Source: an uncultured Clostridia bacterium (GTDB lineage Bacteria; Bacillota; Clostridia; Christensenellales; Borkfalkiaceae). Taken from it: 64,000 nucleotides of DNA. Below the pieces are notes generated by a model. That model was not told the DNA's origin and searched no databases. It was given only the letters and a program-made list of their open reading frames with translations. The position numbers and the translations under genes were made by a program. The stretch spans positions 124,001 to 188,000 of the forward strand of contig CALVWW010000002.1 in the NCBI GenBank assembly GCA_944368155.1. The letters run 5' to 3'. Shown in pieces: positions 2,931-57,375 of this stretch (position 1 is its first letter; each line of letters opens with the position of its first letter).

Positions 2931-3127
2931 CCTCACAGATTTTACGGTTGGTGACGCCGTAAAATCTTCGTGATTTAGGGGAACCAGCTCCCCCTTGCCC
3001 CGATTTTAGGGGCTCTCTTTTTATATAATCGGGGCAATTCCCCCTTTGGCGAGCCTGCTGACCGCAGCAAATTGTGTCGCGCTTATCGGCGAACTAAATT
3101 CGCCTTGCGCACATTATTGTTTTAAAA
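2931..3127 (+). repeat. Multi-hairpin mosaic element, copy A1
   Basis: Hairpin 1 starts with CTCACAG, eight bases from the ftsY ATG, and pairs GATTTTACGG with CCGTAAAATC. Hairpin 2 is AGGGGaaccagCTCCCC. Hairpin 3 pairs GCCCCGAT with ATCGGGGC. The distal hairpin pairs GGCGAA with TTCGCC and ends TTGCGCACATTATT. Copy A2 faces it in inverted orientation. Confidence 0.85.
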
Positions 3128-3185
3128 TCTACCCTTCCGGCACAGTCTCGCTACACTCGACTTTGCCACCTCCCCTATGCAAGCG
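3128..3185 (-). repeat. Family-3 repeat (GGGGAGGTGGC type)
   Basis: Read on the minus strand it begins GGGGAGGTGGCAAAG, continues with GTGTAGCGAGACTGTGCC and ends in GGAAGGG. I recall short elements of this style (GGGAGGTGnC...GTAGCGnGACGG) between genes in many gut Clostridia. It sits between copies A1 and A2. Confidence 0.45.
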
Positions 3186-3195
3186 GAGATTATAA

Positions 3196-3398
3196 TGCGG
3201 CAATTATTATTTTAAATAACTTATGTCGCAAGGCGGGTTTCCCGCCGCAGCAGGACTCAATTTGCGCATACCTGCGTCTCAGTAGGGTGAATGGCGGCAT
3301 TCCTATAATTGAGGGCAATAGCAATGCCGCCAGAGGGGCAACGCCCCTAAGATTCACAAAAATTTTGCGGCGCGCAAGCCGTAAAATTTTGTGAGCCC
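3196..3398 (-). repeat. Multi-hairpin mosaic element, copy A2
   Basis: Read on the minus strand it starts GGGCTCAC two bases after the smc stop. Hairpin 1 is formed by AAAATTTTACGG and CCGCAAAATTTT, hairpin 2 by AGGGGCGTTGCCCCT, hairpin 3 by GGCGGCATT with AATGCCGCC, and the distal hairpin by GGCGGGAAACCCGCC. It forms a tail-to-tail inverted pair with A1. Confidence 0.85.
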
Positions 3399-3399
3399 A

Positions 3400-6300
3400 T
3401 TACATCACCGTGTCTCCGCCGAGGCGCGATTCTACTTCAGACAGTTTTACCGAAACTATCTTGGAAACACCCTTCTCCTCCATTGTTACGCCGAAGAGTG
3501 TATCGGCATTCTCCATGGTGGGTTTGCGGTGGGTAATGACGATAAACTGCGTCTGCGTTGCGAATTTCTTTAAATACTTTGCATACCTGCCGACATTGGC
3601 ATCGTCGAGCGCGGCCTCTATCTCGTCGAGTACGCAGAAGGGCATGGGGCGCATGCCGATTATGGCAAACAGAATGGCTATAGCGGTCAGAGCGCGCTCG
3701 CCGCCTGACAGGAGCGAAATTTTTGTCAGCTTTTTGCCGGGAGGGCAGGCCTCTATCTCCACGCCCGCGTCGAGAGGGTCTTCGCAGTCGGTATAATCCA
3801 GCTGTAGTTCCGCCCTGCCGCCTCCGAATAATTCCTTAAATGTCTGTTTGAAGTTTTCGTTTATCTTGTTGAATCCCTCGTTGAAGATATTGAGCATCTC
3901 CGTCCTTATCTCGTCGAGAGCTTTTGTCAGGTCGTCAATCGCCTTCTCCATGTCAGCCTTGTCGGCAGACATCTTGTCGTAGCGCTCCTTTATCTCGCGG
4001 TATTCCGTTACTGCATTGGGATTTATTGCACCGAGCATGGTTATCTGACGTTTGAGCGAAGAGACTGCTGAAGGTGCGCCCTCGATGTCAAAATCCTCGG
4101 CCTTGTATTTTAAACACCCGTCGTAGTCCTCGCCATACTCGTCCATTATGCGCTGCTGCATATTCTCGAGGTCGGCGTCGAGCTTTGTGAGCGCTATCTG
4201 CTGGCTGTTTCGCCTGTCGGTATTTTCCTGAATGCTCTTGTGCAGTTCCAACCTCTCGATATCTATCTTCTTTATGCGCTCGTTTGTGGTGACTTTGCTC
4301 TCCGTTGTGGCGGCTATGCGCGCGCGGATATCGTCAACCACCTCCTGCTCCTCGGCTGTGAGCGCGGTGTGCTCTGCCTGACGGTTCAGCTCTTCAAGTT
4401 CGCGCTCGATATCGGGTATGGCGGCGCGTGTGCGCGCTATCTTGCTTATGAGCTCATCCTTTTCGGAAGTCAGCCTTCGGGTGTTTTCGCTTCCCGACTT
4501 TACAGCAGCCTCAAGCGAGGCCTTTTCCACCCTCGCAGAGTTGAGTTTGTCGAGCTTTTCATCACGCTGTTTTATGAGAGCGTCGTATTGCGTAGAGATA
4601 TTTTCAATGGCCGACGACGCCTCGGACGAACGCTCGTTCAAATCGCTCGCCCCGCGCGAAGTCTGGCTGTATTCGTCGTTGAGCGCCGCAAGCCTGCCGC
4701 CTATCATTTCGGCGGTCTGGGCAAACACGGCGTACCTGCTCTCTTCGGAGGCGAGCTGTTTTAAAAGGCTCTCGGAGAGCTGCTCGTTGGCCGCGAGTTC
4801 GGCACGGGAATTCTGGAACTTTGCGCGCAGCTCTTCCAAATTGGAAGAGGCCTCTTTAAGCTCGGTCTGCGCCCTGTCGCGCATGGTCTCCGCACGGGAA
4901 AGCGCCGCTTTCTTCTCGGCTATGCTCTCCTCAATTTCCTTGATTCTGCGCTCATTCGCAAGCAGATTGCCCGCATTGTCCTTTCGCGACCCGCCCGTCA
5001 TGGAACCCGAACTGTTTATAACGTCGCCGTCCAAAGTTACAATTTTGAATGCGCGCGGATATCTGCGCGCAATTATAGTTGCGCTCTCTATGTTGTCGCA
5101 CACGAGAGTATTGCCGAGAAGATACCTTATAACGTTTTCATACTTTTTGTCGTACCCGACAAGGTCCGCGGCAAAGCCGACGGCGCCCCTTTCTTTACGG
5201 GCGGAGCGGATGCTGTCGCCCTCCATTCTCGGACGGAGCGCCTCGACGGGAAGGAAAGTAACCTGACCGCCGCGAGTGCGCTTTAAATACTCTATAAGGA
5301 ATTTTGCGTCGTCACGCGTGCCCGTAACTACATTCTGCATGGCGCCGCCGAACGCAGTCTCTATGGCTACTTCGTATTCGCCTGAAGTAGTCACGATATC
5401 GGCGATAAGTCCCTGTATTTTTGAAGAGAGCTCTGCATTGTTCTTGGCCTCCGACATGAGGCGCTTTACCGAATATATGTAGCCGTCGAACCTGTCGCGC
5501 AGAGCCTTTACCGTGGCTAAACTGTCGCTTAAACCTGCTATCTGCGAGCGGGCGTCGTATGCTTTCTGCGTATAGGCGCGCACGCTCTCCTCGCTGTCGC
5601 GCACGGCTTTGGCTGCGCGCTCCATCGTCTCGTTTTCAGAGTCGATAAAGGCGATTATCTCGCCGTGGCGGGCGATGCTTGCGTCATACTCCGCCTTGTA
5701 GCCGTCGCGCAGCTTCACTATTTCGTCGAGCGTGGCGCGCACCTCGGAAAGGCGCTCGCTTAAAAGTTTGCGCTGGGCCTCTATCGAGCCCATGTTCTTG
5801 TTGAGGTCAGAAAGGTCGCGGAACGTATCCATGACTTTTTTTCTGTTTTCATCGGTCATGGCCTCGAACTTTCCTATCTCGTCGGAGAGAGAAGAAAGCT
5901 CCTCCTCGAGCGCTTTGCAGCTTGCTTCGAGTTTTTCCGCCCTCTCGGAATTTTTTCTGTTATACTCCTCTGCACGGCGTATTTCACGCTCTATCTCGTC
6001 AATGCGCTGCGTCGAGAAGGTGACGTCTTCCTGCGCGGAACGCAGTTTTTCCTTAACGGAATTGGCCTTTTCCTGCAACACCTTTCCCTCGCCGGTCTTG
6101 CGCTGGATGCCTACGGTGTAACGCAGAAGGCGCTCGTTCAGTTCCGCGAGCTCGTCATCGGCGCCGGAAACTATGTCGCGGCACTGTTCATATTCCTTCA
6201 AAACTTCCGAAGAACGCGCTGTGAGGCGCTCTATCTCCGAAGTATAGTGCGCAATTCTGTCGTTTATTTTCTGTTTCCTTCCGGCGCTCGTGTCATGGTG

Positions 6301-6999
6301 GTAGATATATGAATTTATTTCGAGCGAACGCAGGCGGGCATACAGTTCCTCATACTTTATGGCGCTTTCGGCCGCCTTCTCCGCGGGAGCGAGCTGGCGT
6401 TCGACCTCGTGCATGCGTTGCTGGAACACATAAAGATTGTCGCGCGCGGCCGAAAGCTTGCGCTCGGCGTCGGCCTTGCGGTCTTTGAACATGGAGATGC
6501 CCGTAGCTTCCTCGAATATCGAGCGTCTGTCCTCGGGCTTGGCGTTCATGATAGTTTCGATTCTGCCCTGTCCTATAATCGAATAACCCTCTTTTGCGGC
6601 GCCTGCGCCGTGCAGAAGGCCTGTTAAAACCTTCATGCGCGAGGGCTGGCGGTTTAAAAGATATTCGCTGTCGCCGTTGCGGTAAAGACGCCTCGTCATC
6701 TCGACTTCATCGCAGTCGATATTGAATATACGGGAGGTATTGTCGAAGGAGAGCGTCACTTCGCAAAAGGAAGTGGGGCGGCGCTTTTCTGTGCCGTTGA
6801 AAATTACGTCGAGCATCTGCGAGCCGCGCATCATCTTGGCCGACTGCTCGCCGAGAACCCAGCGTATAGCATCGGCGACATTCGACTTGCCGCATCCGTT
6901 GGGACCGACTATGCAGGTTACGCCGTCGGTGAACGGGATAACCGTTTTGTCGGCAAACGACTTGAAGCCGACGAGTTCAATCTGTTTAAAAGTAATCAT
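3400..6999 (-). CDS. smc: Chromosome segregation ATPase SMC
   Basis: Condensin core ATPase that organises and segregates the chromosome with ScpA/ScpB. It has full family length (1199 residues). An N-terminal head has Walker A GPNGCGKSN (about 33-41). Two long coiled coils flank a Gly-rich hinge (about 510-670, including GFAADLVGY). The C-terminal head has signature LLSGGERALTA (from about 1096) and Walker B VLDEIEAALDD (about 1123). The order rnc-smc-ftsY is conserved in Gram-positives. Both ends abut mosaic elements: the stop touches copy A2, and copy B lies eight bases upstream of the start. Confidence 0.98.
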   Translation of the reverse strand: MITFKQIELVGFKSFADKTVIPFTDGVTCIVGPNGCGKSNVADAIRWVLGEQSAKMMRGSQMLDVIFNGTEKRRPTSFCEVTLSFDNTSRIFNIDCDEVEMTRRLYRNGDSEYLLNRQPSRMKVLTGLLHGAGAAKEGYSIIGQGRIETIMNAKPEDRRSIFEEATGISMFKDRKADAERKLSAARDNLYVFQQRMHEVERQLAPAEKAAESAIKYEELYARLRSLEINSYIYHHDTSAGRKQKINDRIAHYTSEIERLTARSSEVLKEYEQCRDIVSGADDELAELNERLLRYTVGIQRKTGEGKVLQEKANSVKEKLRSAQEDVTFSTQRIDEIEREIRRAEEYNRKNSERAEKLEASCKALEEELSSLSDEIGKFEAMTDENRKKVMDTFRDLSDLNKNMGSIEAQRKLLSERLSEVRATLDEIVKLRDGYKAEYDASIARHGEIIAFIDSENETMERAAKAVRDSEESVRAYTQKAYDARSQIAGLSDSLATVKALRDRFDGYIYSVKRLMSEAKNNAELSSKIQGLIADIVTTSGEYEVAIETAFGGAMQNVVTGTRDDAKFLIEYLKRTRGGQVTFLPVEALRPRMEGDSIRSARKERGAVGFAADLVGYDKKYENVIRYLLGNTLVCDNIESATIIARRYPRAFKIVTLDGDVINSSGSMTGGSRKDNAGNLLANERRIKEIEESIAEKKAALSRAETMRDRAQTELKEASSNLEELRAKFQNSRAELAANEQLSESLLKQLASEESRYAVFAQTAEMIGGRLAALNDEYSQTSRGASDLNERSSEASSAIENISTQYDALIKQRDEKLDKLNSARVEKASLEAAVKSGSENTRRLTSEKDELISKIARTRAAIPDIERELEELNRQAEHTALTAEEQEVVDDIRARIAATTESKVTTNERIKKIDIERLELHKSIQENTDRRNSQQIALTKLDADLENMQQRIMDEYGEDYDGCLKYKAEDFDIEGAPSAVSSLKRQITMLGAINPNAVTEYREIKERYDKMSADKADMEKAIDDLTKALDEIRTEMLNIFNEGFNKINENFKQTFKELFGGGRAELQLDYTDCEDPLDAGVEIEACPPGKKLTKISLLSGGERALTAIAILFAIIGMRPMPFCVLDEIEAALDDANVGRYAKYLKKFATQTQFIVITHRKPTMENADTLFGVTMEEKGVSKIVSVKLSEVESRLGGDTVM

Positions 7000-7007
7000 A
7001 GAAGCCT

Positions 7008-7316
7008 CTCACAAAATTTTTCGGCTTGCGCGCCGCAAAATTTTCGTGATTTTTAGGGGCTCTGCCCCTCTGGCAACACTGATATTGCCCTCACACTTAG
7101 GTGCGTTGCCATTCACCCCGGTGAGCTCGCTTTCGCGACAAATTGAGACGAGCGGCACTATTCATAGAACAGCGGACACCCGCTGTTCGTGTGCCGCGGA
7201 GAGACCGCAACATGCCGAGCGTCAGCGTGAGGCGTTGCGGAGCCGACCAACGAGGCACGAGGCGACCGCGCGTAAGCGGCGAACTAAATTCGCCTTGCGC
7301 ACATTATTTATTTTTG
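7008..7316 (+). repeat. Multi-hairpin mosaic element, copy B, with internal insertion
   Basis: Hairpin 1 begins CTCACAAAATTTTTCGG next to the smc start. Hairpin 2 is AGGGGCTCTGCCCCT, and hairpin 3 pairs GGCAAC with GTTGCC. About 130 bp (7145-7275), containing ATTCATAGAACAGCGGACACC, separates it from the distal hairpin GGCGAActaaaTTCGCC. A related insertion occurs in copy H. Confidence 0.8.
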
Positions 7317-7475
7317 AAACCCTACTCGCTCAAATCGACTTGCTTCCCTTACCCAAAGGGAGGTGCCACGCGTAGCGTGACGGTGGGATTTGAAGCAAAA
7401 ATCTTTGATGCGAATTATATTTTGCCGTAAAAATGCTTAACGGCCGAACTAAATTCAGCCTTGCATTTTTTTCGG
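7317..7475. repeat. Family-3 repeat plus degenerate distal module
   Basis: Bases 7330-7395 form a hairpin (TCAAATC with GATTTGA, inner CCCTT/AAGGG) containing GGGAGGTGCCACGCGTAGCG, the family-3 core. Bases 7438-7470 (CGGCCGAACTAAATTCAGCC) look like a decayed copy of the distal hairpin of the mosaic element. No gene is seen here. Confidence 0.5.
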
Positions 7476-7514
7476 CGTATTTTATTTCAATATACATTTA
7501 CGTGCAGATAAAAA

Positions 7515-8159
7515 TCAATTCACCAGCGCTTTAACGGCGGCCTTGGCGGCGCGCTTTTCGGCCTCACCCTTACTCCTGCCGGCGCCCGAAAAACTCTGCC
7601 CGCAGACGAGTACATCGCATACAAATTCGGGACTGTTGGCAGACCCGCCGCGACGCGTTGTGCGGTATTCGGGGAGCGGCAGCCCTCTGCCCTGGACATA
7701 TTCCTGAAGTTCGCCCTTGAAATTTTCGGGCGCGTTAATGTGAGCGGATAGCAATGTTCTTTTAACGAAACTCTCTGCGGCGCGGTATCCGCCGTCGGCA
7801 AATATTGCGCCCGTCACAGCCTCATATACCGAGGATAGCGCCTTTTCGCCCACGTCGCGCACGCCTTTTATAATCAATCCGGTGAGCCCGAGCGCTTCCG
7901 AGGCGCATTTAAGCGGAGTGTGTGAGACGAGTTTCTGCCGCTCGGCAGTCATCTCGCCTTCGCTCCCGCCGCGCGCATACAGCCATTTTGTAACTACGAG
8001 CTGCACCACCGAATCGCCAAGAAATTCCAGCTGTTCATAATTTTCGCTGCGGGAGGCCGAAGAATGTGTAAGCGCCCTGACTAACAGTTTTTTATTTTTG
8101 AACGTATAGCCTGTCGCGCGTTCCGCCGTGCATACAAGGTCATCTGAAATCTTCTGCAC
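7515..8159 (-). CDS. rnc: Ribonuclease III
   Basis: Double-strand-specific endoribonuclease that processes rRNA precursors and structured RNAs. The catalytic signature is LEFLGDSVVQL (about 44-54), with the second acidic cluster at YEAVTGAIFADGG (about 108-120). A double-stranded RNA-binding domain fills residues 145-214. At 214 residues it is slightly short but complete. The start is GTG at 8159, one base after the plsX stop, with AGGAAG inside the plsX end, so translation is probably coupled. In many Bacillota acpP lies between plsX and rnc; here it does not. RNase III may process the local hairpin elements (inference). Confidence 0.96.
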   Translation of the reverse strand: MQKISDDLVCTAERATGYTFKNKKLLVRALTHSSASRSENYEQLEFLGDSVVQLVVTKWLYARGGSEGEMTAERQKLVSHTPLKCASEALGLTGLIIKGVRDVGEKALSSVYEAVTGAIFADGGYRAAESFVKRTLLSAHINAPENFKGELQEYVQGRGLPLPEYRTTRRGGSANSPEFVCDVLVCGQSFSGAGRSKGEAEKRAAKAAVKALVN

Positions 8160-8160
8160 G

Positions 8161-9192
8161 TTATTCTTCCTGAGGTATGAGATTAGCCCAGTCGACCTTT
8201 GCGAGCATCTCCTCCACGCGGCCGATGAGGTTGCCTTCGTATATGTTTGCGGCGTTTTCTATAGCGGCGGTTATCGTGCGCGCCTTTGAGGAGCCGTGGC
8301 TCTTTATTACCACCTTTTTGACGCCGAGGAGCAGGGCGCCGCCTACTGCCTCGAAGTCGAGCTTTGCACGCATGCGCTTGAAACCCTTCAACAGGAACAG
8401 ACTGCCTATCTTTGACGATAGCGAGCCCGTCGCCTCCTTCTTAAGCACGGAGAGTATGAGTTTGCCGCACCCTTCCATGGCCTTCAGGGCTACATTGCCG
8501 GAAAAGCCGTCGGCAACCGCGACGTCGCATTCGGAAAGCATAATGTCGCGCCCCTCTATATTGCCCATAAAGTCGATGACGTCCATCTTTTTCAGGAGCT
8601 GATAGGTCTGCTGATGGAGAGGGTCGCCCTTGTGCTCCTCAGTTCCGTTGTTCAAAAGCCCGACTTTGGGGTTTTTAATGCCGAAACCTGCCGTTGCGTA
8701 AGCCGAAGCGAGCACCGCGAACTGGCAGAGCATAGAAGGTTTACACTCGGCGTTTGCGCCGCAGTCGCAGAGTAGCGTGTAGCCGCCGCGGGCGTTGGGA
8801 ATGGCGGGGCAGAGCGCGGGGCGCTTTATGCCGCGTATTCTGCCTAAAATAAGCTGGCCCGCCGCAATAGTGGCTCCGGTGGAGCCTGCGGTGACGAGAC
8901 CTGCTATATCCCCGTCGTCCTTCAGCGCGCGGAAAGCCTTTACCAACGACGATTCCCTCTTTCTTACCGCCTCGGTGGGAATGTCGTTCATGTCTATCAC
9001 GTCGCGGCAATCCATTATCTCAAGGCGGGAGCTGTCGTATTTGTATTTTTTGAGCTCCGCCCCGATATCCTCCTGTCTGCCGGCAAGGATAAGATATATA
9101 TTTTTATTTTTGTTAAGTGCGTCAACCGCGCCCTGCACGGGAGCGGCGGGGGCGTTATCGCCGCCCATTGCGTCAACTAAAATTTTAATCAT
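8161..9192 (-). CDS. plsX: Phosphate acyltransferase PlsX
   Basis: Converts acyl-ACP to acyl-phosphate, the first step of phospholipid synthesis in Gram-positives, working with PlsY and PlsC at the membrane face. It shows the family start IKILVDAMGGDNAP, the central GAT-rich stretch (LVTAGSTGATIAAGQ, about 100-115), PALCPAIPN and DCGANAECKP, at normal length (343 residues). It heads an operon with rnc. Copy C of the mosaic element and a family-3 fragment separate it from asnS upstream. FapR control cannot be seen. Confidence 0.97.
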   Translation of the reverse strand: MIKILVDAMGGDNAPAAPVQGAVDALNKNKNIYLILAGRQEDIGAELKKYKYDSSRLEIMDCRDVIDMNDIPTEAVRKRESSLVKAFRALKDDGDIAGLVTAGSTGATIAAGQLILGRIRGIKRPALCPAIPNARGGYTLLCDCGANAECKPSMLCQFAVLASAYATAGFGIKNPKVGLLNNGTEEHKGDPLHQQTYQLLKKMDVIDFMGNIEGRDIMLSECDVAVADGFSGNVALKAMEGCGKLILSVLKKEATGSLSSKIGSLFLLKGFKRMRAKLDFEAVGGALLLGVKKVVIKSHGSSKARTITAAIENAANIYEGNLIGRVEEMLAKVDWANLIPQEE

Positions 9193-9203
9193 ATATACAT
9201 TCT

Positions 9204-9248
9204 CTAAGTCGCGTTCCGCGACAGCTCCCTTTACACAATGGAGCCTTT
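9204..9248. repeat. Fragment of family-3-like repeat
   Basis: TCGCGTTCCGCGACAGCTCC followed by CTTTACACAATGGAGCC resembles the end of a dispersed element of the style SCACGGCTTCGCCGTGACAGCTCCC that I recall from Clostridia. It is short and uncertain. Confidence 0.35.
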
Positions 9249-9249
9249 A

Positions 9250-9441
9250 AGTTTTAAATAAATATGTGCGCAAGCAGGGTTTCCCTGCGCCAGCGCGACC
9301 CAATTTGTCGCGAAAGCGAGCTCACCAAGGGTGAATTTGCGCGATTATATGCTTCGTGGGCACTTAAAATCGCGCAAAGAGGGGCTGGCCCCTCAAATCA
9401 CGGAAATTGTCGCGCACGGCCTGCGCGAGAATTTCGTGAGC
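9250..9441 (-). repeat. Multi-hairpin mosaic element, copy C
   Basis: Read on the minus strand it starts GCTCACGAAATTC right after the asnS stop. Hairpin 1 pairs GAAATTCTCGCGC with GCGCGACAATTTC, hairpin 2 is GAGGGGCCAGCCCCTC, hairpin 3 pairs GCGCGATT with AATCGCGC, and the distal hairpin is GCAGGGAAACCCTGC. It differs from copy D mainly at paired positions. Confidence 0.88.
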
Positions 9442-10821
9442 TCAGTATTCGAGGTTACCAACGGTGCGAGGGAAGGGTATAACATCCCGAATATTGGAAA
9501 CACCGGTTAAATACATTATAAGCCTTTCAAACCCGAGGCCGAAGCCCGAGTGAACGCAGCCGCCGTAGCGGCGAAGGTCGGTGTAGAACTCGTAGTCGGC
9601 GGCATTCAAACCGCACTCCTTCATGCGCGCTTCCAGAACTTCGAGCCTCTCCTCCCTCTGGCTGCCGCCTATCAGCTCGCCTATGCCGGGCACGAGAAGG
9701 TCGGCCGCGGCGACGGTCTTGTTGTCGTCGTTCAGGCGCATATAGAAAGCCTTGATACCTTTGGGGTAGTCGGTGAGGAACACGGGCTTTTTATACACGG
9801 TTTCTGTGAGATAACGCTCGTGCTCGCTCTGCAAATCGCATCCCCACTCTACGGGATATTCAAATTTTTTGCCGTCTGCAATCGCCTTTTTGAGAATATC
9901 TATCGCCTCGGTATAGGAAAGGCGAACAAATTCGCCGCCCTTGAGCGCCTCGAATCTGTCTTTAAGTTCGGGGCATACTCTCTCTGTGAGGAAGTCCACC
10001 TCGTATTCGCACGTTTCATGCACATACTCCGCCACGAACTTCACCATAGCCTCCGCCACGTCCATGTCGCCCGCAAGGTCGCAGAACGCCATTTCAGGCT
10101 CTATCATCCAGAACTCTGCGGCATGGCGCGCCGTATTGGAATTTTCCGCACGGAAAGTGGGACCGAAGGTATAAACATTGGAGAACGCCATAGCGTATGT
10201 CTCAACGTCAAGCTGACCCGACACGGTGAGCGCCGCACGCTTGCCGAAGAAATCTTTCGAAAGGTCGGTTTCGCCGGGAGCGAGAGTGGTGACCCTGAAC
10301 ATTGCGCCGGCGCCCTCGCAGTCGGAGCCGGTGATTATGGGCGTGTGGACATACACAAAGCCGCGGTCGTTGAAAAATTTATGAATGGCAAAAGCCGCCT
10401 GCGAGCGGATGCGGAACACCGCGCCGAACAGGTTTGTCCTGGGGCGCAGGTGCGCAATTTCGCGCAGGAATTCGGGTGAATGGCGCTTCTTCTGCAAAGG
10501 ATATGTGGGGAGAGAGGCACCCTCCACCTCCACCTCTTCGGCGCGCAGTTCAAAAGGCTGACGCATTTCGGGCGTGAGCACTATTCTGCCGCGCACGCGC
10601 AGGGCCGCGCCCACGCCGCAGTGCACGATATTTTCATAATCTGCAAGCGCCTCCCTGTCGAGCACAACCTGGCAATTCTTCTGGCAGGAACCGTCGTTCA
10701 GTTCAACAAAACCGAAGTTTTTGCTGTCGCGCACAGAGCGCGCCCAGCCGCGCAGTTCCACGAGCGCACCGCCGAAGCTTTCGGGGGCGGCGTACAATGA
10801 TTTAATATATGTTCTGTCCAT
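9442..10821 (-). CDS. asnS: Asparaginyl-tRNA synthetase
   Basis: Class IIb synthetase charging tRNA-Asn. It has an N-terminal OB-fold anticodon-binding domain (about 1-110), then the catalytic core with motif 2 ([21 protein letters not shown], split here as [11 protein letters not shown] and EFWMIEPEM) and motif 3 ([15 protein letters not shown]) near the C terminus, which ends in the expected [12 protein letters not shown] chose ATG 10821 because GAGAGGG precedes it and [10 protein letters not shown] fits the family; a TTG four codons upstream is possible. It has its own promoter upstream and no T-box leader was found. Confidence 0.96.
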
Positions 10822-10894
10822 ATGCCCTCTCAATGCAGACGCTTTCAGCTACCGCCTTCAGCGCCGCAATTTTTAAAAATTATATCCACGTTAA

Positions 10895-10923: not shown

Positions 10924-10996
10924 TAAAATAATTCAGTTTTTTTATCTTCAAGCCTCAAAGCGATTAAAAACATAAATCTGCGCGCTTTTTTGCGCT

Positions 10997-19075: not shown

Positions 19076-19262
19076 TTCACGAATTTTTCACCTTGGCCGA
19101 ATGCTAAAAATTCCGTGATTTGAGGGGCCAGCCCCTCTTTGCGCAATTTTAAGGGCCCACGAAGCATATAATTGCGCAAATTCACCCTTGGTGAGCTCGC
19201 TCTCGCGACAAATTGAGTCGCGCTGGCGCAGGGAAACCCTGCTTGCGCACATTATTTATTTT
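19076..19262 (+). repeat. Multi-hairpin mosaic element, copy D (best-formed copy)
   Basis: It begins immediately after the dnaA stop. Hairpin 1 spans 19077-19118 (TCACGAATTTTT with AAAAATTCCGTGA). Hairpin 2 is 19122-19137 (GAGGGGCCAGCCCCTC). Hairpin 3 pairs 19138-19148 with 19170-19180 (TTTGCGCAATT). CACCCTTGGTG lies at 19183-19193. CGCGAC and GTCGCG flank AAATTGA at 19204-19222. The distal hairpin GCAGGGAAACCCTGC is 19228-19242, then TTGCGCACATTATTTATT. Confidence 0.9.
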
Positions 19263-29572: not shown

Positions 29573-29933
29573 ATCTCTCACAGAACGGCCGGATAAAGGC
29601 CGGAATTTTTATTCGCACGGCACTATGCCGCAATTAACGGGGCAATTTAATCAACACAATCCCTCCCTCGCTTTACGCAAAGAAGGCTCAATTGCGAAAT
29701 AAAGTCTATAAATATTATGTCGCAAGGCGGGTTTCCCGCCGTAAAGCACAGCGAGCCGGCGCGAGCATTAAGAACTTTACAAGGAGTAACTTTTCGCCAC
29801 AGCAAATTTCTGAAATGATAATGCCGAAAAAACACAAGCCCGAATTCAGTTCGGGCGTTAAGTGTTTTTACGACTTACCGTAAAATCACGGAAAAAGATT
29901 TTGCCAAGGGCAAAAGATTTTTCGTGAGCCGCT
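29573..29933. repeat. Degenerate mosaic elements (copies F1 and F2) between dapF and gltB3
   Basis: F1 (29573-29612) keeps the CTCACAG start and a hairpin GGCCGgataaaggCCGG only. F2 (29700-29926, minus orientation) keeps hairpin 1 (GGCTCACGAAAAATC with a complementary arm) and the distal GGCGGGTTTCCCGCC in reverse, but its middle is unrelated and includes a hairpin GCCCGAAttcagTTCGGGC at 29839-29857 followed by T residues. No gene is supported in this interval. Confidence 0.6.
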
Positions 29934-34499: not shown

Positions 34500-34620
34500 A
34501 AGCAAGTAAGACAAGGCGTGCGCGGAAGGTTTGAGGGAGCTTACTTAGACGTAAGTGACCGAAAACACCCGTAAGCACAACACAGTATTACGCCGCTTAT
34601 GCGAGGGCAAACGGAGTGTG
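34500..34620 (+). repeat. Dispersed repeat family 2, copy c (most complete)
   Basis: Reads GAAGCAAGTAAGACAAGG, GTGCGCGGAAGGTTTGAGG, GAGCTTACTTAGACGTAAGT, GACCGAAAACACCCG and ends near GAGGGCAAACGG. Copies or fragments occur at 1296-1405, 19266-19310 and 32340-32560. It abuts a hairpin (AGTGATTTTTGCaggCAAAAATCACT, given as two arms) that overlaps the gltB2 stop. Confidence 0.65.
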
Positions 34621-49805: not shown

Positions 49806-49875
49806 ATATTTAAACCTTGCGGCAACCCGCCCGCTTAGATAACCCTTGGAGAAGGCAAACGCCTTTTAAAAATAT

Positions 49876-50175
49876 TGATGTTTCAAGCAAGGTTTCCTTA
49901 CGCCGCCCACTCGCTCTGCGTATGGTAAAACCGCACAGCTCGGTCACCGTTCGCGCACTTACATAGGCGCCCACTCATCTCGCTACGGCACTCAAGGTGG
50001 GTGTCCACCTTGCTATGAATTGCCTTGCTCGACCCAATTTGTCGCGAAAGCGAGCTCGCCGAGGGTGAATTGCCCCGATTATTATCGTGGGCCCGCGTAA
50101 ATCGGGGCAAGAGGGGCCGGCCCCTCAAGTCACGGGAATTTTAGCTCTCGGCCAGAGCTAAAATTCCGTGAGCCC
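49876..50175 (-). repeat. Multi-hairpin mosaic element, copy H, with internal insertion
   Basis: On the minus strand it starts GGGCTCACGGAATTTTAGC directly after the RNase J stop. Hairpin 1 has 13-base arms with loop CTGGCCGAG, hairpin 2 is GAGGGGCCGGCCCCTC, and hairpin 3 pairs GCCCCGAT with ATCGGGGC. A 100-base insertion containing ATTCATAGCAAGGTGGACAC precedes a decayed distal hairpin (AAGG/CCTT). Confidence 0.82.
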
Positions 50176-52206
50176 TTACAATTCTACGACGACGGGCACT
50201 ATCATCGGCGACTGTTTGGTCTTTTTTAAAAGATAATTTTTAAGCGTCTTTTTTATGGCGCGCTTGAGTTCGTCGACGGAGCCTATTGTGAGGTCGTAGC
50301 CCTCTATTGCATTCTTTATCACCCCGCGCACCTCGGTTATATAATCTTTGTGGAAACCGAAAATGAAGCCGCGGCTGTTGACTGCGGGTTCGCCTATTAC
50401 CTCGCCGCCGGAGACCACTACCGAAACTATGAAGAGCCCGTCGGAGGCAAGCTGGCGCCTGTCCTGCATTACGGTGGAGGTCTTTTCATCCTCTATGCCG
50501 TCGCCGTCGATGAGGCGCGAGCCTGCGGGCACATTGTCGCCGCGGCGGAGCGAGTTTGACGAGAGCATAACGCAGTTGCCTATATCGGGCAGGAATATGT
50601 TGCTCTCCTTCATCCCCAGCTCGGCGGCAAGCTGTGCGTGCTTCTTCAGATGTCTGTATTCGCCGTGCACGGGAATAAAGAATTTCGGCTTTAACAGCCT
50701 GTGCATTATTTTGTGCTCCTCGCGGCAGGCATGGCCCGAGACGTGTATATTTTCAAGGCTCTCATACACGACGTTGGCGCCTTTGCGGTAGAGGTTGTTT
50801 ATTACGTTATATATGCCCTTTTCGTTGCCGGGAATGGGAGAAGCGGAGATTATTATCGTATCGTTGTCGCCCACGGTGACGGAGGGGTTTTCGCCGTTGG
50901 CCATGCGCGTTAAGGCGCTCATCGGCTCGCCCTGGCTGCCCGTGGATACTATTACGAGCTCGCTGTCGGGTATCTTCTTTGTGCGCGAAACGTCAACCAG
51001 CACACCCTCGGGAATAGTGAGGTCGCCGATATTTTCGGCAGCGTCGACAACGTTGAGCATGCTCCTGCCGGAGAGCGCGACTTTGCGCTTATATTTTACC
51101 GCAAGGTCGATTATCTGCTGAAGCCTGTGCACGTTGGAGGCAAAGGTTGCTATTATCAGCCTTCTCGTCGGGTTTTCGTTGAACAGCCTGTCTAACGTGC
51201 TGCCAACCGTCTTTTCGCTCATGGTGTAGCCGGGGCGCTCTATGTTCGTGCTCTCGCCGAGGTAACACAGCACTCCCTTCTCACCGATTTCGGCTATCGT
51301 CTTTAAATCTATGGGCTCTCCCGCGACGGGCGTCAAATCTATCTTGAAGTCGCCGCTGTGGAATATCAGGCCCTGAGGCGTGTTGATTGCGAGGGCTACG
51401 GCGCCCGCAATGGAGTGGTTGACGTTTACGAACAACACCTCGAATGCGCCGAGTTTTATCCGGTCGCCGGGGGAAACTATTATCTCTTCGGCATCGTTTA
51501 TCCTGTGTTCGCGGAGTTTGTTATCGACGAGCGCGAGCGTGAGACGAGTGCCGTATACGGGCGCCTTTATTTCACGCAGCAGATAGGGCACGCCGCCTAT
51601 GTGGTCCTCATGCCCGTGCGTTAAAAGCAGACCCTTAATCTTATGCCTGTTTGCAACGAGATAGGAAATATCGGGGGCGACAAGGTCGATTCCGGGCAAT
51701 TCTTCCGTGGGGAAGATAATGCCTGCGTCTATTATGATTATGTCCTCGCCGTACTCTATGGCGGTCATATTTTTGCCTATCTCGCCCACGCCGCCGAGGA
51801 ATATTATTTTTACAAATTTTTCCCGCTTAGCCCTCGCCTTTTTTGCAGGTTTCTCCTCCGCAGCTTCGGCCGTAAGTTCAAGTATGTTATCTTCTTCAGC
51901 CTTTACGCGGCGCTGTTTTTTCGCCGGCTGTTTATCTCCGCGCGTTTTTTGGGAAGAAGCCTTCTTTACAGGCTCCTTCTGTTCATCCTTCTTTTTGCGC
52001 GGAGCGGCGTCCTCTGATTTTTTTGCGCGCATCTTTACCTCCCCCGCCGCAGGCTCAACCGGGGAGGAGGAAACTCCGCCGCCCGAATTGCCGAGATATA
52101 AAAATTGCGAGAGCGAGCCGCCGCCCGACATGGGCGTGCCCTCGGAAGGTTTGCCTATGCGCCCCGTGCGCAGTTTTTTTGTCGTCTTCTTTTTATCGTT
52201 TTCCAA
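50176..52206 (-). CDS. rnj: Ribonuclease J
   Basis: Metallo-beta-lactamase/beta-CASP 5' exonuclease and endonuclease for mRNA decay and rRNA maturation. The metal site is LLLTHGHEDHIGG (about 193-205). The beta-CASP region includes IATFASNVHRLQQI (about 355) and VSGHACREEHKIM with FIPVHGEYRHL (about 490-520). Total length is 676 residues because about 130 residues of low-complexity, Lys/Glu/Ala-rich sequence precede the core at FVKIIFLGGVGEIG. The start is TTG 52206 with GGGAGAG before it. A single RNase J gene is seen in the window. Confidence 0.95.
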   Translation of the reverse strand: MENDKKKTTKKLRTGRIGKPSEGTPMSGGGSLSQFLYLGNSGGGVSSSPVEPAAGEVKMRAKKSEDAAPRKKKDEQKEPVKKASSQKTRGDKQPAKKQRRVKAEEDNILELTAEAAEEKPAKKARAKREKFVKIIFLGGVGEIGKNMTAIEYGEDIIIIDAGIIFPTEELPGIDLVAPDISYLVANRHKIKGLLLTHGHEDHIGGVPYLLREIKAPVYGTRLTLALVDNKLREHRINDAEEIIVSPGDRIKLGAFEVLFVNVNHSIAGAVALAINTPQGLIFHSGDFKIDLTPVAGEPIDLKTIAEIGEKGVLCYLGESTNIERPGYTMSEKTVGSTLDRLFNENPTRRLIIATFASNVHRLQQIIDLAVKYKRKVALSGRSMLNVVDAAENIGDLTIPEGVLVDVSRTKKIPDSELVIVSTGSQGEPMSALTRMANGENPSVTVGDNDTIIISASPIPGNEKGIYNVINNLYRKGANVVYESLENIHVSGHACREEHKIMHRLLKPKFFIPVHGEYRHLKKHAQLAAELGMKESNIFLPDIGNCVMLSSNSLRRGDNVPAGSRLIDGDGIEDEKTSTVMQDRRQLASDGLFIVSVVVSGGEVIGEPAVNSRGFIFGFHKDYITEVRGVIKNAIEGYDLTIGSVDELKRAIKKTLKNYLLKKTKQSPMIVPVVVEL

Positions 52207-52498
52207 TATGACTCTCCCATGGCGCCCTTTTCAGACGCCGCAACAAAACACACCCGCGGCACAGCAAAATTTTTCCCCGGGTTGCGCTGCCGGAGAAGGG
52301 GCAAAACGCCAACCTGCACCGGCAAAAATTAAGATATATATGTACGGCCTTTTGCGCGCGGGCGCCGTCGCGCGGCGCCCGCGCGCAATTTCTGCCGAAA
52401 AATTCAAAGTAAAAATCTGCGGTTAAATCTGCGCTTAAATTTATTTAAAGGGGTTGATAAAAAAAACTATCAACCCCCCTTAGTAAAATTGTTCTTTT
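52207..52498. other. Gap between RNase J and the repeat protein
   Basis: It holds a hairpin at 52450-52477 and otherwise GC-rich then AT-rich sequence with no supported gene. Confidence 0.5.
52450..52477 (-). terminator. Terminator after the repeat protein gene
   Basis: GGGGTTGATA pairs with TATCAACCCC around an A-run and lies 22 bases after the stop codon. The following minus-strand sequence is moderately T-rich. Confidence 0.65.
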
Positions 52499-54475
52499 TT
52501 ACTTGTTCTTGCTTACGTCCTTCACGAGGCCGTCCTCGATGAGCTCCTCGATAGTTTCGTAGGGATACATGGCCGCGTAATCTCTCTCCTGAACGGGCCT
52601 TCTCTCTCCGTTCCGCTTTGCAAGCATATCATCTATAAGACGTATTGCCTTCCTCACGCCGAGAGGGCTCTTAATCTTAACCATCATCGGCGTGCCGTGC
52701 ATCGACTTGTTGTCAGACACGTCGACGTGATGATAAACGGAAGTTTTATATTCGTTCGGGTCGAGATTGAGATACAGGCAGAGCGTCTTGCCCCTGATTT
52801 TGAGCTTTGCAATAGTTTCCCTGCCCTTGTTGAAGCGCTCGGCGCCCCAGGCTACCGACGAATTTACCTTTCTGTACGCCAGCATTGCGTTCTTTATTTC
52901 GCCGTAATAGCGCTTGACGTCGTCGGAGCTTTGAATGATTCTCGCTATAAAGCTGCGGTTGTACTTCATCATGTTTGCGAAGTCTACGCCGCTGCCCATC
53001 TCGTCCATGCCGTCGGGCTCGGCCTCGCCGTCGGCCATCTTTTCGTCTACGTCGTCGAAGATATTCTCCATTACCTCGTCTTCAGGCTCCGAAGAAACTT
53101 CCTCCTCGTCGACTATGTCGCTCACGGTGACAAGAGGTTCGTCAGCGGGCTGTTCCTCAGCCTTCTGCTCACCGTCTGCCGAAGCCGCCGCGGCAACTAT
53201 CGCGCCGCCCGCAAGCATGGCCTTGATTTCGTCAAGCCGCCTGCCTATATCGGCGTCCATCTCCTCGATGGCCGCATAGGAGCCGGCAATTTTTTCAGAG
53301 ATGCTGTCAGTTATTCTGCCGAGTCCGTCGTCGTCTATAACAATGTCGAAGTCCTCGCTTTCCTCCGTGCTCTCTTCCTCTGCCGCAAGCTTTTCGGCAA
53401 CACCGCTCGCTATGGCGTCGTAATCGATTTCGGTTGAGGGTATTGACGCGAGAACCGCCGCCGCAACTTTATCGGCAATCTCGTCGCCGTCGACTTCGGG
53501 CATATAATTGGAGAGCGCCGCGGCAGTTTTGTCGGCTATCGCGTCTTCGTTCACGCCGCTTGCGGCAAGCTTTTCGGATACGAGCTGTGCAAGCTCTTCG
53601 GTGTTGACATACTCTTCGTCCGCGTCGGCAGCGGCCACCTCTGCGGCGGCGCTGTGCTCGGCGAGCTTTTTGACAATTCCGTCGTAATCGAGGCTCTCTG
53701 CAACGGCCTCGGCAAGCGAACGGCAGCCTTCGTCGTCGACTATAATGTCGAAATCGTTGGGCGAAAGCGCGCTCACCTTACGCGCAATCTCGTCGGAGAG
53801 CGCGTCGGCGTCTATGTTGGCGGAAGTTACCTCCAAAGGGGTATCGCCGCCGCTTATGACCGCGGGGGGGATTATAATCTGCTCGGCAACTTTCGACGCT
53901 ATGTAATCGGGAGAGATAACCTCCTGAGGTATATACTCGGCAACGCGCTTTGCAATATCCTCGTAGTCGAGCGCGGATATGAGTTCCTTTTCGGCAAATT
54001 TTTCCGCAAGGCGTTCGGCGAGCTTGTCGTAGTCGATATATTTTCCGTCGACGGCGGGCTGCTCGTCCTCGACGGCGGGAGCCACCTCGTCATAGAGCTC
54101 AGGCTGGGGCTCGGCCGCAGCGGCTTCGGCAGGCTTGCCGATGACGGCATATTTCATAATCTTTTCTTCGAGAGAGGTCATCATGCCTGAAAGTTTGATA
54201 AACACATTTTCGCACTGCGCGGCAACATAGTTTATCTCCTTCTTTATCTGGGCGTTTTCCTCGAGCAGTTTCTCTAAAATAGAGCTGTTCTGCTTGCTGA
54301 TATATGCCGTTTCCCTGGCGACTTTTTCGCCCACGGAGCCGTCGGCACCGCCCGTCGCAAGCAGTTTATCGATTTTTTCGGCAAGTTCGGCCTGGCGCTG
54401 CAAAATAACGTCGGCCTTGGTGGCGTAGTTGGCATTCTGGCGCTCACTATCGCTCTTCTTGTTGAAAATTGCCAT
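52499..54475 (-). CDS. Acidic repeat protein of unknown function
   Basis: I cannot assign a function. The 658-residue protein has a coiled-coil-prone N terminus (about 20-115), then about nine imperfect repeats of 20-30 residues (145-405). Their core is D-Y-D-x-I-A-x-x-V-A-E-x-L (DYDAIASGVAEKLAAEE, DGDEIADKVAAAVL, DYDGIVKKLAEHS). Two repeats are preceded by near-identical DFDIIVDDEG and DFDIVIDDDG. An acidic stretch (about 435-500) leads to a C-terminal domain (505-658) with KLKIRGKTLCLYLNLDP, a pattern I recall from several clostridial proteins of unknown role. There is no signal peptide or membrane segment. ATG 54475 has AGAGAGG upstream. Confidence 0.75.
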   Translation of the reverse strand: MAIFNKKSDSERQNANYATKADVILQRQAELAEKIDKLLATGGADGSVGEKVARETAYISKQNSSILEKLLEENAQIKKEINYVAAQCENVFIKLSGMMTSLEEKIMKYAVIGKPAEAAAAEPQPELYDEVAPAVEDEQPAVDGKYIDYDKLAERLAEKFAEKELISALDYEDIAKRVAEYIPQEVISPDYIASKVAEQIIIPPAVISGGDTPLEVTSANIDADALSDEIARKVSALSPNDFDIIVDDEGCRSLAEAVAESLDYDGIVKKLAEHSAAAEVAAADADEEYVNTEELAQLVSEKLAASGVNEDAIADKTAAALSNYMPEVDGDEIADKVAAAVLASIPSTEIDYDAIASGVAEKLAAEEESTEESEDFDIVIDDDGLGRITDSISEKIAGSYAAIEEMDADIGRRLDEIKAMLAGGAIVAAAASADGEQKAEEQPADEPLVTVSDIVDEEEVSSEPEDEVMENIFDDVDEKMADGEAEPDGMDEMGSGVDFANMMKYNRSFIARIIQSSDDVKRYYGEIKNAMLAYRKVNSSVAWGAERFNKGRETIAKLKIRGKTLCLYLNLDPNEYKTSVYHHVDVSDNKSMHGTPMMVKIKSPLGVRKAIRLIDDMLAKRNGERRPVQERDYAAMYPYETIEELIEDGLVKDVSKNK

Positions 54476-54864
54476 AAAAGTACCTCTCTTTAAGCGGCGG
54501 TAAAATGTGTTTGGTGAAGCATGCAGCAAAAAGCGAAGCCGCCGCGCGTATTTGCTTACAGAATAATTTTACAACAAAAAAAGAAAATTGTAAATATAAT
54601 TGCCCAAACTTTTTGCCGCAACGCACAAATTTTTTTGCATTGGCTGGCAGATATGCCCAATTTAACGGCGGCGAACGCCCGCACGCATTAAGCTGCCGGC
54701 CGCCGACGGGCAAAAAAATAACAAATTTTGCTTTAGGAGGTTGAATTTTTTGTAAGGGTGTAGTATAATGGCTGTATTATACGAATAATTATACGCGCAG
54801 AGCGCCGGCATTGACGCTTTACGCCTCAACCTTTCGTAAATTTATTAAAGGGAGAAATGCAACC
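54476..54864. other. Divergent region between the repeat protein gene and serC
   Basis: It contains the serC promoter (54741-54769) and a leader of about 90 bases with no T-box or riboswitch fold that I can recognise. The rest is AT-rich without a supported gene. Confidence 0.55.
54741..54769 (+). promoter_or_regulatory. serC-serA promoter
   Basis: TTGAAT (54741-54746) and TATAAT (54764-54769) are 17 bases apart, with transcription expected to start near 54776. Confidence 0.75.
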
Positions 54865-55938
54865 ATGAGAGTGTATAACTTTTCAGCAGGCCCCTCGACC
54901 CTGCCCTTAAATGTTTTGGAGCAGGCACAGAAGGAATTTTTGGACTTTGCCGGAACGGGAATGTCCGTCACAGAGATATCCCACCGCGACAAAGCGTTCG
55001 ACGCAGTGGTAAAAGAGGCGGAATCGCTCGTGCGCGAGCTTTTGAACGTGCCCGACGACTACGCCGTGATTTTTGTTCAGGGCGGCGCGTCGACGCAGTT
55101 CGCCGCCATTCCGCTCAACATGATGCACAACGGCAAGGCCGACTACATAGTTACGGGCAACTTTGCAAAGAAGGCATGGCAGGAGGGCCAGATTTACGGC
55201 GAGGCCGTAAAGATTGGCGACAGCTCCGACAAAACCTATACCTATATTCCCGACGTCGATAAGCTCAGCTATTCCGAAGGCGCCGACTATGTTCACATCA
55301 CCTCGAACAACACCATATTCGGCACAAGGTATGTAAAGTTCCCCGAGTGCAAAGCTCCGCTCGTTGCGGATATGTCCTCGGAGATTTTCTCGCGCGAGGT
55401 AGACGTCAAAAAGTTCGGCGTAATATACGCGGGCGCGCAGAAAAACCTTGCCCCCGCGGGCGTAACGATAGTAATAGCAAGGCGCGACCTCATTCAGGAC
55501 CCCCTGAAGATTTGCCCCACCATGCTCAAATGGAAGGTGCAGGATGAGAACGGCTCGCTCTACAACACTCCCCCCTGCTTCTCCATATATATGGCAAACC
55601 TTGTGCTGCGCGACCTGAAGGCAAAGGGCGGCGTGAAGGCCATGAACGAGGCGGACGAATACAAAGCGGGACTGTTGTATGACTTTATCGACAACTCCTC
55701 CCTCTTTAAAAACAATGTCGTAAAACAGTTCCGCTCGATAATGAACGTGCCCTTCGTAACCCCTTCCGCCGAGCTCGACGCAAAATTTATTTCAGAAGCC
55801 AAGAGCGCAGGCCTTGTTTCCCTCAAAGGGCACAGGCTTGTGGGCGGCATGAGAGCTTCGATATACAACGCTATGCCCGTCGAGGGCGTAAAGACGCTCA
55901 TAGAATTCATGAAGAAATTCGAACTGGAAAACAAATAA
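54865..55938 (+). CDS. serC: Phosphoserine aminotransferase
   Basis: PLP enzyme of serine synthesis (3-phosphohydroxypyruvate plus glutamate to phosphoserine). The N terminus MRVYNFSAGPSTLPLNVLEQ is diagnostic; GGASTQFAAIPLNM lies near 76 and the PLP lysine in YAGAQKNLAPAGVTIV near 195. It is 357 residues from ATG 54865, which has GGGAGAAATG upstream; a longer frame has no ribosome site. It is followed 19 bases later by serA. No serB was seen. Confidence 0.97.
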   Translation: MRVYNFSAGPSTLPLNVLEQAQKEFLDFAGTGMSVTEISHRDKAFDAVVKEAESLVRELLNVPDDYAVIFVQGGASTQFAAIPLNMMHNGKADYIVTGNFAKKAWQEGQIYGEAVKIGDSSDKTYTYIPDVDKLSYSEGADYVHITSNNTIFGTRYVKFPECKAPLVADMSSEIFSREVDVKKFGVIYAGAQKNLAPAGVTIVIARRDLIQDPLKICPTMLKWKVQDENGSLYNTPPCFSIYMANLVLRDLKAKGGVKAMNEADEYKAGLLYDFIDNSSLFKNNVVKQFRSIMNVPFVTPSAELDAKFISEAKSAGLVSLKGHRLVGGMRASIYNAMPVEGVKTLIEFMKKFELENK

Positions 55939-55957
55939 ATTAAAGGGGGCAAATGAT

Positions 55958-57121
55958 ATGTCTAAACAGATTCTTAAATTAAACGCAATAAGCCCGCTTG
56001 CAGACGCAATTTTTGCAGGTTACGGCTATGGCGACAGCTGCGACAATCCCGACGGCATAATGGTGCGTTCGGCACAGATGGCGGACTATAAACCGGGCGA
56101 CAAACTCGTCGCCGTTGCGCGCGCAGGCGCGGGCACCAACAATATTCCCGTAGCCGACTACGCCGAAAAGGGCATCGTGGTTTTCAACACCCCCGGTGCA
56201 AACGCAAACGCCGTGAAGGAACTCGTCATCTGCGAACTGTTCCTCGGCGGCAGAAAAATTACCGAGGCAATCGACTGGGTAAAGACGCTCAAGGACGAGG
56301 GAGAAAACGTCGGCAAGCTCGTTGAAAAAGGCAAGAGCAAGTTTGTAGGCAGCGAAATAAAGGGCAAGATGCTCGGCGTCATAGGCCTCGGCGCAATAGG
56401 CGTGGCAGTGGCAAACGCCGCATACGGGCTCAATATGGAGGTGACAGGCACCGACCCCTATCTTTCCACCATGAATGCGCTCGCGCTTTCGCCGCACATC
56501 AAGGTAGTGCCCGAGCGCGAAGACATATACAAGAACGCAGATTTCATCACAATGCACGTACCCCTCACCCCCGACACAAAGGGCATGATAAACAGGGACA
56601 CAATCGCACAGATGAAGGACGGCGTGGTAATAATCAACAACAGCCGCGGCGAACTTGTGAACACTGCGGATATGATAGAGGCGCTTGAGAGCGGCAAGGT
56701 CGGCAGATATATAACCGACTTCCCCAACGCACAGCTCATAGGAGTGAAGAACTGCATTTGCGTTCCCCACCTCGGCGCAAGCACGCCCGAGGCCGAGGAC
56801 AACTGCGCCGTTATGGCCGCGCACCAGCTTGTGGACTACATAGAGAACGGAAACATAACCAACAGCGTGAACTACCCCTCCGTTTCGCTCGCGCGCGACG
56901 AGGGCAAGGGCAGGGTGTGCATACTGCACCGCAACGTTAAAAACATTATTACCAAATTCACCTCGGCAATATCCGAGCAGGGACTGAATATCGCGCACAT
57001 GGCAAGTTCAAGCCGCGGCGACTATGCCTGCTCGATACTTGAAATCGACGGTGCAATTCCCGCAAAGACCGTTGAATCGATAACAAAAGTAGAGGGCGTG
57101 CTGCGCGTGCGCTCGCTTTAA
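55958..57121 (+). CDS. serA: D-3-phosphoglycerate dehydrogenase (short type with ACT domain)
   Basis: First enzyme of serine synthesis. The NAD-binding fold has GVIGLGAIGVAVANAAYGL (about 146-164), the catalytic Arg region NNSRGELVNTADM (about 228), and the His in CVPHLGASTPEAEDN (about 268). The last 70 residues are an ACT domain (ISEQGLNIAHMASSSRGDYA), probably for serine feedback. Length is 387 residues, without the intervening domain of long SerA forms. AAAGGGGGC precedes the ATG. It is in an operon with serC. Confidence 0.96.
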   Translation: MSKQILKLNAISPLADAIFAGYGYGDSCDNPDGIMVRSAQMADYKPGDKLVAVARAGAGTNNIPVADYAEKGIVVFNTPGANANAVKELVICELFLGGRKITEAIDWVKTLKDEGENVGKLVEKGKSKFVGSEIKGKMLGVIGLGAIGVAVANAAYGLNMEVTGTDPYLSTMNALALSPHIKVVPEREDIYKNADFITMHVPLTPDTKGMINRDTIAQMKDGVVIINNSRGELVNTADMIEALESGKVGRYITDFPNAQLIGVKNCICVPHLGASTPEAEDNCAVMAAHQLVDYIENGNITNSVNYPSVSLARDEGKGRVCILHRNVKNIITKFTSAISEQGLNIAHMASSSRGDYACSILEIDGAIPAKTVESITKVEGVLRVRSL

Positions 57122-57126
57122 AAAAG

Positions 57127-57375
57127 GAGCTCACAGATTTCCGCGCAGGTGATACGCGGAAATCTTCGTGATTCAGGGGAGCCAGCTCCCCCTTACCCCG
57201 ATTTCAGGGGCTCTCTTAATTTATAATCGGGGTAATTCCCCCTTTGGTGCGCGAGCGAAGCGCTGCTTTGCCGAAGGACTCCCGCGTGCGGGAAACGGCA
57301 AAACCCGCTGACGCGGCAAATGTGGTCGCGCGTAAGCGGCGAACTAAATTCGCCTTGTGCACGTAATTTTGTTTT
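57127..57375 (+). repeat. Multi-hairpin mosaic element, copy I, with insertion
   Basis: Starts GAGCTCACAGATTTCC six bases after the serA stop. Hairpin 1 pairs GATTTCCGCG with CGCGGAAATC, hairpin 2 is GGGGAGCCAGCTCCCC, and hairpin 3 pairs ACCCCGAT with ATCGGGGT. An inserted nested hairpin (TTTGCCG/CGGCAAA with inner TCCCGCG/CGCGGGA-like arms) lies at 57268-57305. The distal hairpin is GGCGAActaaaTTCGCC. Confidence 0.85.

Follow-up and report, generated by a model that had tools for sequence, protein, structure and literature searches.

The stretch of DNA analysed here (hereafter the window; 64,000 nucleotides, positions 124,001-188,000 of contig CALVWW010000002.1, assembly GCA_944368155.1) comes from a host whose genome carries a dispersed, gene-adjacent repeat of about 190 bases, which is restricted to one bacterial family among those sampled. 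With a probability of roughly 45%, we read this repeat as a non-autonomous mobile element of about 190 bp that lacks terminal inverted repeats and would be recognised as one folded strand, perhaps of single-stranded DNA. Small interspersed repeats are a known kind of sequence; what would make this one unusual is a three-strand code, proposed from aligned copies, in which the letters of a short joint change together with both arms of a neighbouring stem.

The element has a constant order of parts, namely a first hairpin, H1 (TCAC...CGTGA), a short hairpin H2, a hairpin H3 with an internal loop, the joint, a hairpin H4 followed by the conserved letters CAAATTG, a hairpin H5 and an AT-rich tail. 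An earlier note on this DNA had described a multi-hairpin element with a shared order of parts, and both this order and the hairpin arms that it quoted are as stated, although in three copies (B, H and I) the joint and H5 are set apart by additional sequence; new with respect to that description are a bulge in H1, the H3 internal loop (AAGGGCnCAC...TATAAT) and hairpin H4. The anatomy is plainest in copy D:

19076..19256, plus strand: copy D, the cleanest of the full elements, immediately following the dnaA stop codon; 188.3 bits with the covariance model R1 described below, covering model positions 1-181
19077..19118, plus strand: hairpin 1 (TCAC...CGTGA), with an unpaired C before GTGA
19122..19137, plus strand: hairpin 2 (GAGGGG CCAG CCCCTC), its 5' arm purine-rich
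19138..19180, plus strand: hairpin 3, with the internal loop AAGGGCCCAC...TATAAT
19181..19195, plus strand: joint, of which CACCC (19183-19187) tracks the H2 stem in parallel register and is the proposed third strand
19196..19215, plus strand: hairpin 4 and the conserved CAAATTG
19220..19248, plus strand: hairpin 5 (outer GCGC/GCGC, inner GCAGGG/CCCTGC)

The case for selection on paired structure, in RNA or in extruded DNA, already put forward in the earlier note, is supported by covariation that is significant under a tree-based null as well as in shuffle and slide controls. An alignment of 43 copies folds into 46 pairs, 37 of them with at least one both-side change. In a sequence-only alignment (A2, from which 6 of 49 regular-expression finds were left out), the covariation score was 0.551 against 0.186 with shuffled 3' partners, a value reached in 0 of 500 shuffles, and sliding the partners abolished it; one of five measures, that of further pair types, did not rise above the shuffles (139/500). 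A structure-free scan of the 43 sequences, for which a custom script rather than R-scape computed a G-test with average product correction against a null simulated on the inferred tree, returned 12 pairs at E<=0.05; ten fall in predicted helices, and each of H1 to H5 has at least one. Extended to 149 of 193 distinct sequences (those of length 172-196 and not contained in another), the same scan gave 18 significant pairs; in 16 of them standard pairs exceed 80%, and the remaining two involve the joint. The earlier note knew of no named family with this architecture, and Rfam gives 0 matches at the gathering threshold in the window; matches at relaxed E in window 2900-3420 and at five loci stay below threshold, and a known RNA family was rejected as a candidate. 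No description of the repeat was found in listings of the open-access literature, subscription papers being mostly outside the search.

Unpaired features are mostly kept while the stems vary. Among the 193 distinct sequences, which include weak model matches, 177 could be scored for their loops and 154 of these classified for H1, and in 147 of the 154 one or two unpaired bases directly precede GTGA (in 134 copies, a lone C); five have no unpaired base and two have one on the other side. Loops, likewise, are rarely inverted, the kept and inverted polarities standing at 91:1 for the GGGAAACCC types, 62:3 for the GGCCG types and 36:0 for the GGCTCTGCC types, with the AAGNGC motif of H3 as the exception (102 against 15) and one small H2 class at 4 against 1. 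Covariation, a kept bulge and loops of nearly fixed polarity together point to conservation of shape over sequence.

The joint is not a fixed motif: its letters change together with H2, a code that the earlier description missed. The two significant pairs that involve the joint link alignment column 111 with both bases of H2 pair 51-60, and the three-way counts there are G-C.C 91, A-T.T 23 and C-G.A 19 of 149. In the same register, 52-59.112 gives G-C.C 78 and A-T.T 35 of 148, and 49-62.109 gives A-T.A 96 and G-C.C 25 of 149, from which G-T.A (13) departs. The register is parallel: on fixed windows a parallel rule scores z 12.8 and antiparallel pairing 0.7, and among column scores the joint-H2 signal is confined to the parallel diagonal, so that antiparallel pairing was set aside, though a looser longest-run test gives it z 7.9. 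At the three variable positions the code is obeyed by 0.870 of 146, 0.912 of 147 and 0.850 of 133 copies, and joint shuffles stratified by genome (five genomes each alone, 52 copies of other genomes pooled) reproduced it in 0 of 2000 at each position. The positions vary independently of one another (AGG/ACC, AGA/ACT, AAA/ATT, ACG/AAC, GCG/CAC, AAG/ATC, GAG/CTC). Two genomes supply four loci that the alignment did not contain, and these conform as well, with H2 GGGAGA beside joint CCCTCT and H2 (G)AGGGGA beside CACCCCT; a further copy is one position off the code.

In the canonical triples of the pyrimidine motif, C.G-C and T.A-T, the third strand runs parallel to the purine strand, and this is the pattern found at 51-60.111 and 52-59.112. 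The code thus hints at the third strand of a base-triple helix, and from the order of parts along the strand the joint, which exits H3 at the H2/H3 boundary, could run along H2. Several observations sit poorly with such a helix. Copies A1, G2 and I of the window fit the code only with a one-base shift and resemble a rule-breaking group of 6 (GGA/CCC); two of the triple types are non-canonical, with an A at C-G in column 111 and another at A-T in column 109; and successive C+.G-C triples are costly to form at neutral pH. The joint also scores higher with the 3' arm of H2 (60-111, rank 5) than with the 5' arm (51-111, rank 17), which is not predicted by simple Hoogsteen contact with the 5' arm, and where H2 is mispaired the joint tends to match the 3' arm.

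The ten copies listed in the earlier note are all present, and each is recovered by R1, a covariance model built from a MAFFT alignment of the 43 full copies from the window's genome and its relatives, several of the ten among them, with scores from 195 down to 46 bits (E from 8e-55 to 8e-12). What the list did not convey is that they belong to a genome-wide family, far beyond ten. R1 finds 75 matches at E<=0.01 in the window's genome (1.73 Mb), 57 of them above 45 bits; some weak ones cover only part of the element or lie on the strand opposite H1. Of the 61 genomes of the window's genus that were sampled, 54 have matches; so do 17 of 297 genomes from a sample of the order, all 17 in one family: 9 belong to the window's genus (the window's genome is one of them) and 8 to two other genera. 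Candidatus Coproplasma avicola, the nearest named DnaA relative (77% identity), has no element in the 3.1 kb examined. Besides copy D, the copies of the window are as follows:

2932..3118, plus strand: copy A1, with 8 nt between H1 and the start of an ftsY-like SRP GTPase gene; 141.7 bits
3218..3395, minus strand: copy A2, H1 4 nt after the smc stop; 141.0 bits
7008..7306, plus strand: copy B with insert; 99.3 bits, matched by the model over 7008-7166, the distal part reaching about 7306
9260..9440, minus strand: copy C, 1 nt downstream of the stop codon of a class II tRNA synthetase gene; 195.2 bits
29712..29928, minus strand: copy F2, a second subtype fused to a main-type fragment; 46.1 bits
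30677..30864, plus strand: copy G1; 147.8 bits
30879..31060, minus strand: copy G2, tail to tail with G1; 141.4 bits
49876..50172, minus strand: copy H, after an RNase J gene, with an insert in its distal part; model match 50014-50172, 121.4 bits
57130..57368, plus strand: copy I with insert; 101 bits, its downstream hairpin also seen at the empty site in relative G002

The weakest of these, F2, had been called degenerate; by eye it joins a main-type piece to a second subtype, which consists of H1 and a single distal hairpin. This subtype, seen by eye in window 29712-29928 and in the flanks of six other loci, passes from H1 directly to a hairpin GTCGTAAAAACGCTTAACGGC..GCCTTGCGTTTTT-CGGCATTATTATTT with a TTAAC/TT internal loop that resembles the one in some main-type H5 hairpins. 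Shorter relatives, again by eye and at four loci in another genus of the family, have H1 and CAAATTG-H5, apparently without H2 and H3; as they keep H1 and CAAATTG-H5, the ends of the element are suggested as its core.

The earlier note called the element intergenic and missed both the placement of H1 at gene edges and the evidence for mobility. In 84 places chosen from the loci examined, 79 have a predicted gene on the H1 side and 80 on the tail side; H1 lies within 20 nt of the gene at 52 of the 79 (median 8), the tail at 7 of the 80 (median 202.5). Of these H1 sides, 53 face the 3' end of a gene, and the other 26 are turned towards a 5' end. Among the seven genus genomes read at the dnaA-mnmG junction, the window's own and one relative (G068) have the element there and the remaining five lack it. 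Across the eight element-bearing junctions of the window, relative G002 has an R1 match at two (B and G), and relative G016 has one at A, B, C, D, F and H and none at G, which makes six of seven junctions (I lay outside the comparison). Nine junctions have a match in at least two of these three genomes, and at eight of them at least one copy is concordant in orientation, A2 and G2 being additional, opposite-orientation copies at two of the eight; at the tRNA synthetase/plsX junction the copies are opposite in orientation between genomes. At the shared B site the hairpin sequences all differ among genomes. Since element sites differ between species, copies have come or gone, and head-to-tail tandem arrays occur. 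Dispersion, restriction to one family, presence and absence at orthologous sites and the placement of H1 at gene edges jointly support a mobile element, whose ends and any target duplication filled and empty orthologous sites are too diverged to place.

Within the window's genome, the longest contig seen (393 of 1733 kb) holds 3 of the 57 strong matches, all beyond 353 kb, and the dnaA-bearing contig holds 17; GC skew was too weak to fix the direction of replication. A different dispersed repeat occurs in the same genome (window 1331-1411 and 34534-34614, and two other loci), reading GGGAGCTTACTTA..GTAAGTGACCGAA and preceded by CATAGAAGCAAG..AAGACAAGGAGCG. Further hairpin repeats, GGACACCCGCTGTTC-like units, were seen by eye inside elements (window about 7150-7270 and 49890-50010, and three stretches of G016), as if elements served others as landing sites.

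The preferred reading includes a sketch of how such a repeat might spread. One specific strand would fold into H1 to H5, with the joint alongside H2 as a third strand; spread would proceed as this folded single strand, more likely of DNA than of RNA; a putative trans-acting enzyme would read its shape and not the sequence of its stems, by analogy with the integron integrase and attC; and new copies would settle with H1 beside coding sequence. A bolder version, in which the transposition substrate is a folded single strand that contains the co-varying triple helix and is recognised by its shape, goes further than the preferred reading, and we consider it clearly less likely than that reading.

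The principal competitor is that the repeat is a structured RNA element, acting when transcribed as a terminator, mRNA stabiliser or regulator at gene edges, with a triplex in the major groove as in an H-type pseudoknot. We regard this as a real possibility, at odds short of even. Its loops and bulge are strand-specific, as an RNA would have them, the majority of H1 ends face the 3' end of a gene, and by eye (uncounted) many H1 have an A-tract, a GC stem and a T-tract. On the preferred reading, too, some H1 copies may serve as transcription terminators downstream of stop codons. There is precedent for a riboswitch with a major-groove triplex in SAM-V, in the part of the report consulted (PMC6061858). 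The 26 H1 ends that face gene 5' ends would, however, be antisense.

Mismatches and folding bear most directly on whether the folded strand is RNA or DNA, and together they weakly favour single-stranded DNA. Internal single mismatches in strictly Watson-Crick helices of the 193 distinct sequences are G.T 43, A.C 66 and other 98 (binomial p 0.035), so that the G.U preference of an RNA is missing there. Counted per helix in the sequence-only alignment, G.T/A.C is 58/32 in H1, 37/22 in H2, 7/11 in H3, 7/11 in inner H5 and 32/43 in outer H5; H3 and H5 lean to A.C, and the excess of G.T in H1 and H2 speaks for RNA and counts against the DNA argument. Three further counts leave that argument weak: model-fitted alignments lean to G.T over A.C (66/41 and 94/71); 20 tRNAs give G.T 18 and A.C 0, but ARAGORN's own brackets may leave out A.C; and a like-for-like control on E. 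coli rRNA, with few strict helices, was too small (G.T 6 against A.C 3 at six pairs). In folding, DNA parameters recover 0.804 of consensus pairs and RNA parameters 0.751, fractions that include H4 in a wrong register (10% paired). Copy D beats its shuffles either way, with z -3.45 as RNA and -4.13 as DNA, yet its consensus fold is reached with DNA parameters and not with RNA parameters.

Compensated stems can also arise without selection on shape, through palindrome repair, in which replication template switching copies one arm onto the other; the mechanism is documented, as the consulted part of a published account describes (PMC8794818). The stems are indeed nearly pure Watson-Crick and show GC to CG swaps (H3 pair 67-102: GC 71, CG 68). 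Such copying should, however, erase bulges and invert loops, yet the unpaired nucleotide of H1 is kept and no H1, H2 or H5 loop class has more than three inverted copies (the H3 motif has its 15 against 102), and a parallel joint-H2 code that reaches across H3 is not predicted at all. We think it improbable as the general explanation.

The search for a mobilising enzyme, which found none, counts against the preferred reading as a mobile folded strand. Y1 transposase (PF01797) is in 1 of 10 element-rich genomes and in 4 of 22 genomes overall, with 5 of 14 controls positive. Reverse transcriptase (PF00078) is missing from 7 of the 10, the window's genome, G002 and G016 included, and present in the other three (G014, G053 and G074); IS110 DEDD transposase (PF01548) is over cut-off in 0 of 22 genomes; and integron integrase (TIGR02249) is over cut-off in 0 of 22, no control genome passing either. 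Weaker TIGR02249 matches, in 21 of 22 genomes and all 14 controls, are probably other tyrosine recombinases. As mobilisers, all four enzymes are unsupported in element-rich genomes. IS91/ISCR Y2 transposase (PF04986) gave 0 of 22 genomes and 0 positive controls too. No autonomous element with the same ends was recognised, a right-end model, R2, having matches in 3 genomes among the matches listed, which were not viewed singly. Viral contigs gave no match to two exact patterns, which diverged copies would escape, and phage or plasmid records none to copy D at E<=1e-5. Descent from an IS200/IS605- or REPIN-like system that has lost its Y1 transposase, with the elements as its relics, would suit a bulged hairpin at one end, intergenic and tandem copies and the lack of terminal inverted repeats, but with Y1 so rare in element-rich genomes, and with helices, bulge and code still intact in most copies examined, it is an explanation to which we give little credence.

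If the shape-read transposition substrate is real, the repeat would represent a new class among mobile elements, comparable but unrelated to attC and IS200/IS605, whose copies diversify in three strands at once and are still accepted by a putative structure-reading enzyme. Small interspersed repeats are often taken as decaying relics; here a multi-part fold and a three-strand code are kept in many copies and several genomes. The elements would thus offer a natural data set on base triples, the code being legible directly from the sequences, and the spread of repeats without terminal inverted repeats would become directly testable and point to the mobilising enzyme.

Among known systems, BOX elements are nearest in habit, while REPINs and attC sites come closest through the notion of a strand that folds. 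Those BOX elements, from Streptococcus pneumoniae, are, in the portion of the source consulted (PMC3049150), likewise small, modular and interspersed, with strong predicted folding, clustering and nesting. They are reported there with terminal inverted repeats and target duplications, and their modules and host differ; in the present element, the ends of 126 copies (by base frequency GTTCACRAAA on the left and GCGCnnGTTAATTATTTT on the right) are by inspection not inverted copies of each other, which sets it apart from a MITE as well. No joint-stem triple code is given for BOX in the same text. REPINs, as the consulted sections of the REPIN/RAYT study present them (PMC3116915), are likewise miniature, extragenic and non-autonomous, with hairpins predicted in single-stranded DNA or mRNA. 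They are inverted doublets of the short REP palindrome tied to the Y1 transposase RAYT, whereas no inverted doublet of one short palindrome was found in the 43-copy alignment, which shows several different hairpins in a fixed order, and 9 of 10 element-rich genomes have no PF01797 match. An attC site, to judge from the consulted part of its description (PMC2727003), resembles the element in poor sequence conservation and, on the reading preferred here, in recombination as a folded single strand, the choice of strand being set in attC by an extrahelical base; attC is 57-142 nt long, has R and L boxes and acts with IntI, while the element is about 190 bp long, has several hairpins and comes from genomes with no IntI over cut-off. 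In the triplex of SAM-V, within the sections of the source consulted (PMC6061858), most nucleotides are more than 97% conserved, whereas the element, for which a ligand or regulatory role would be only putative, has three strands that co-vary.

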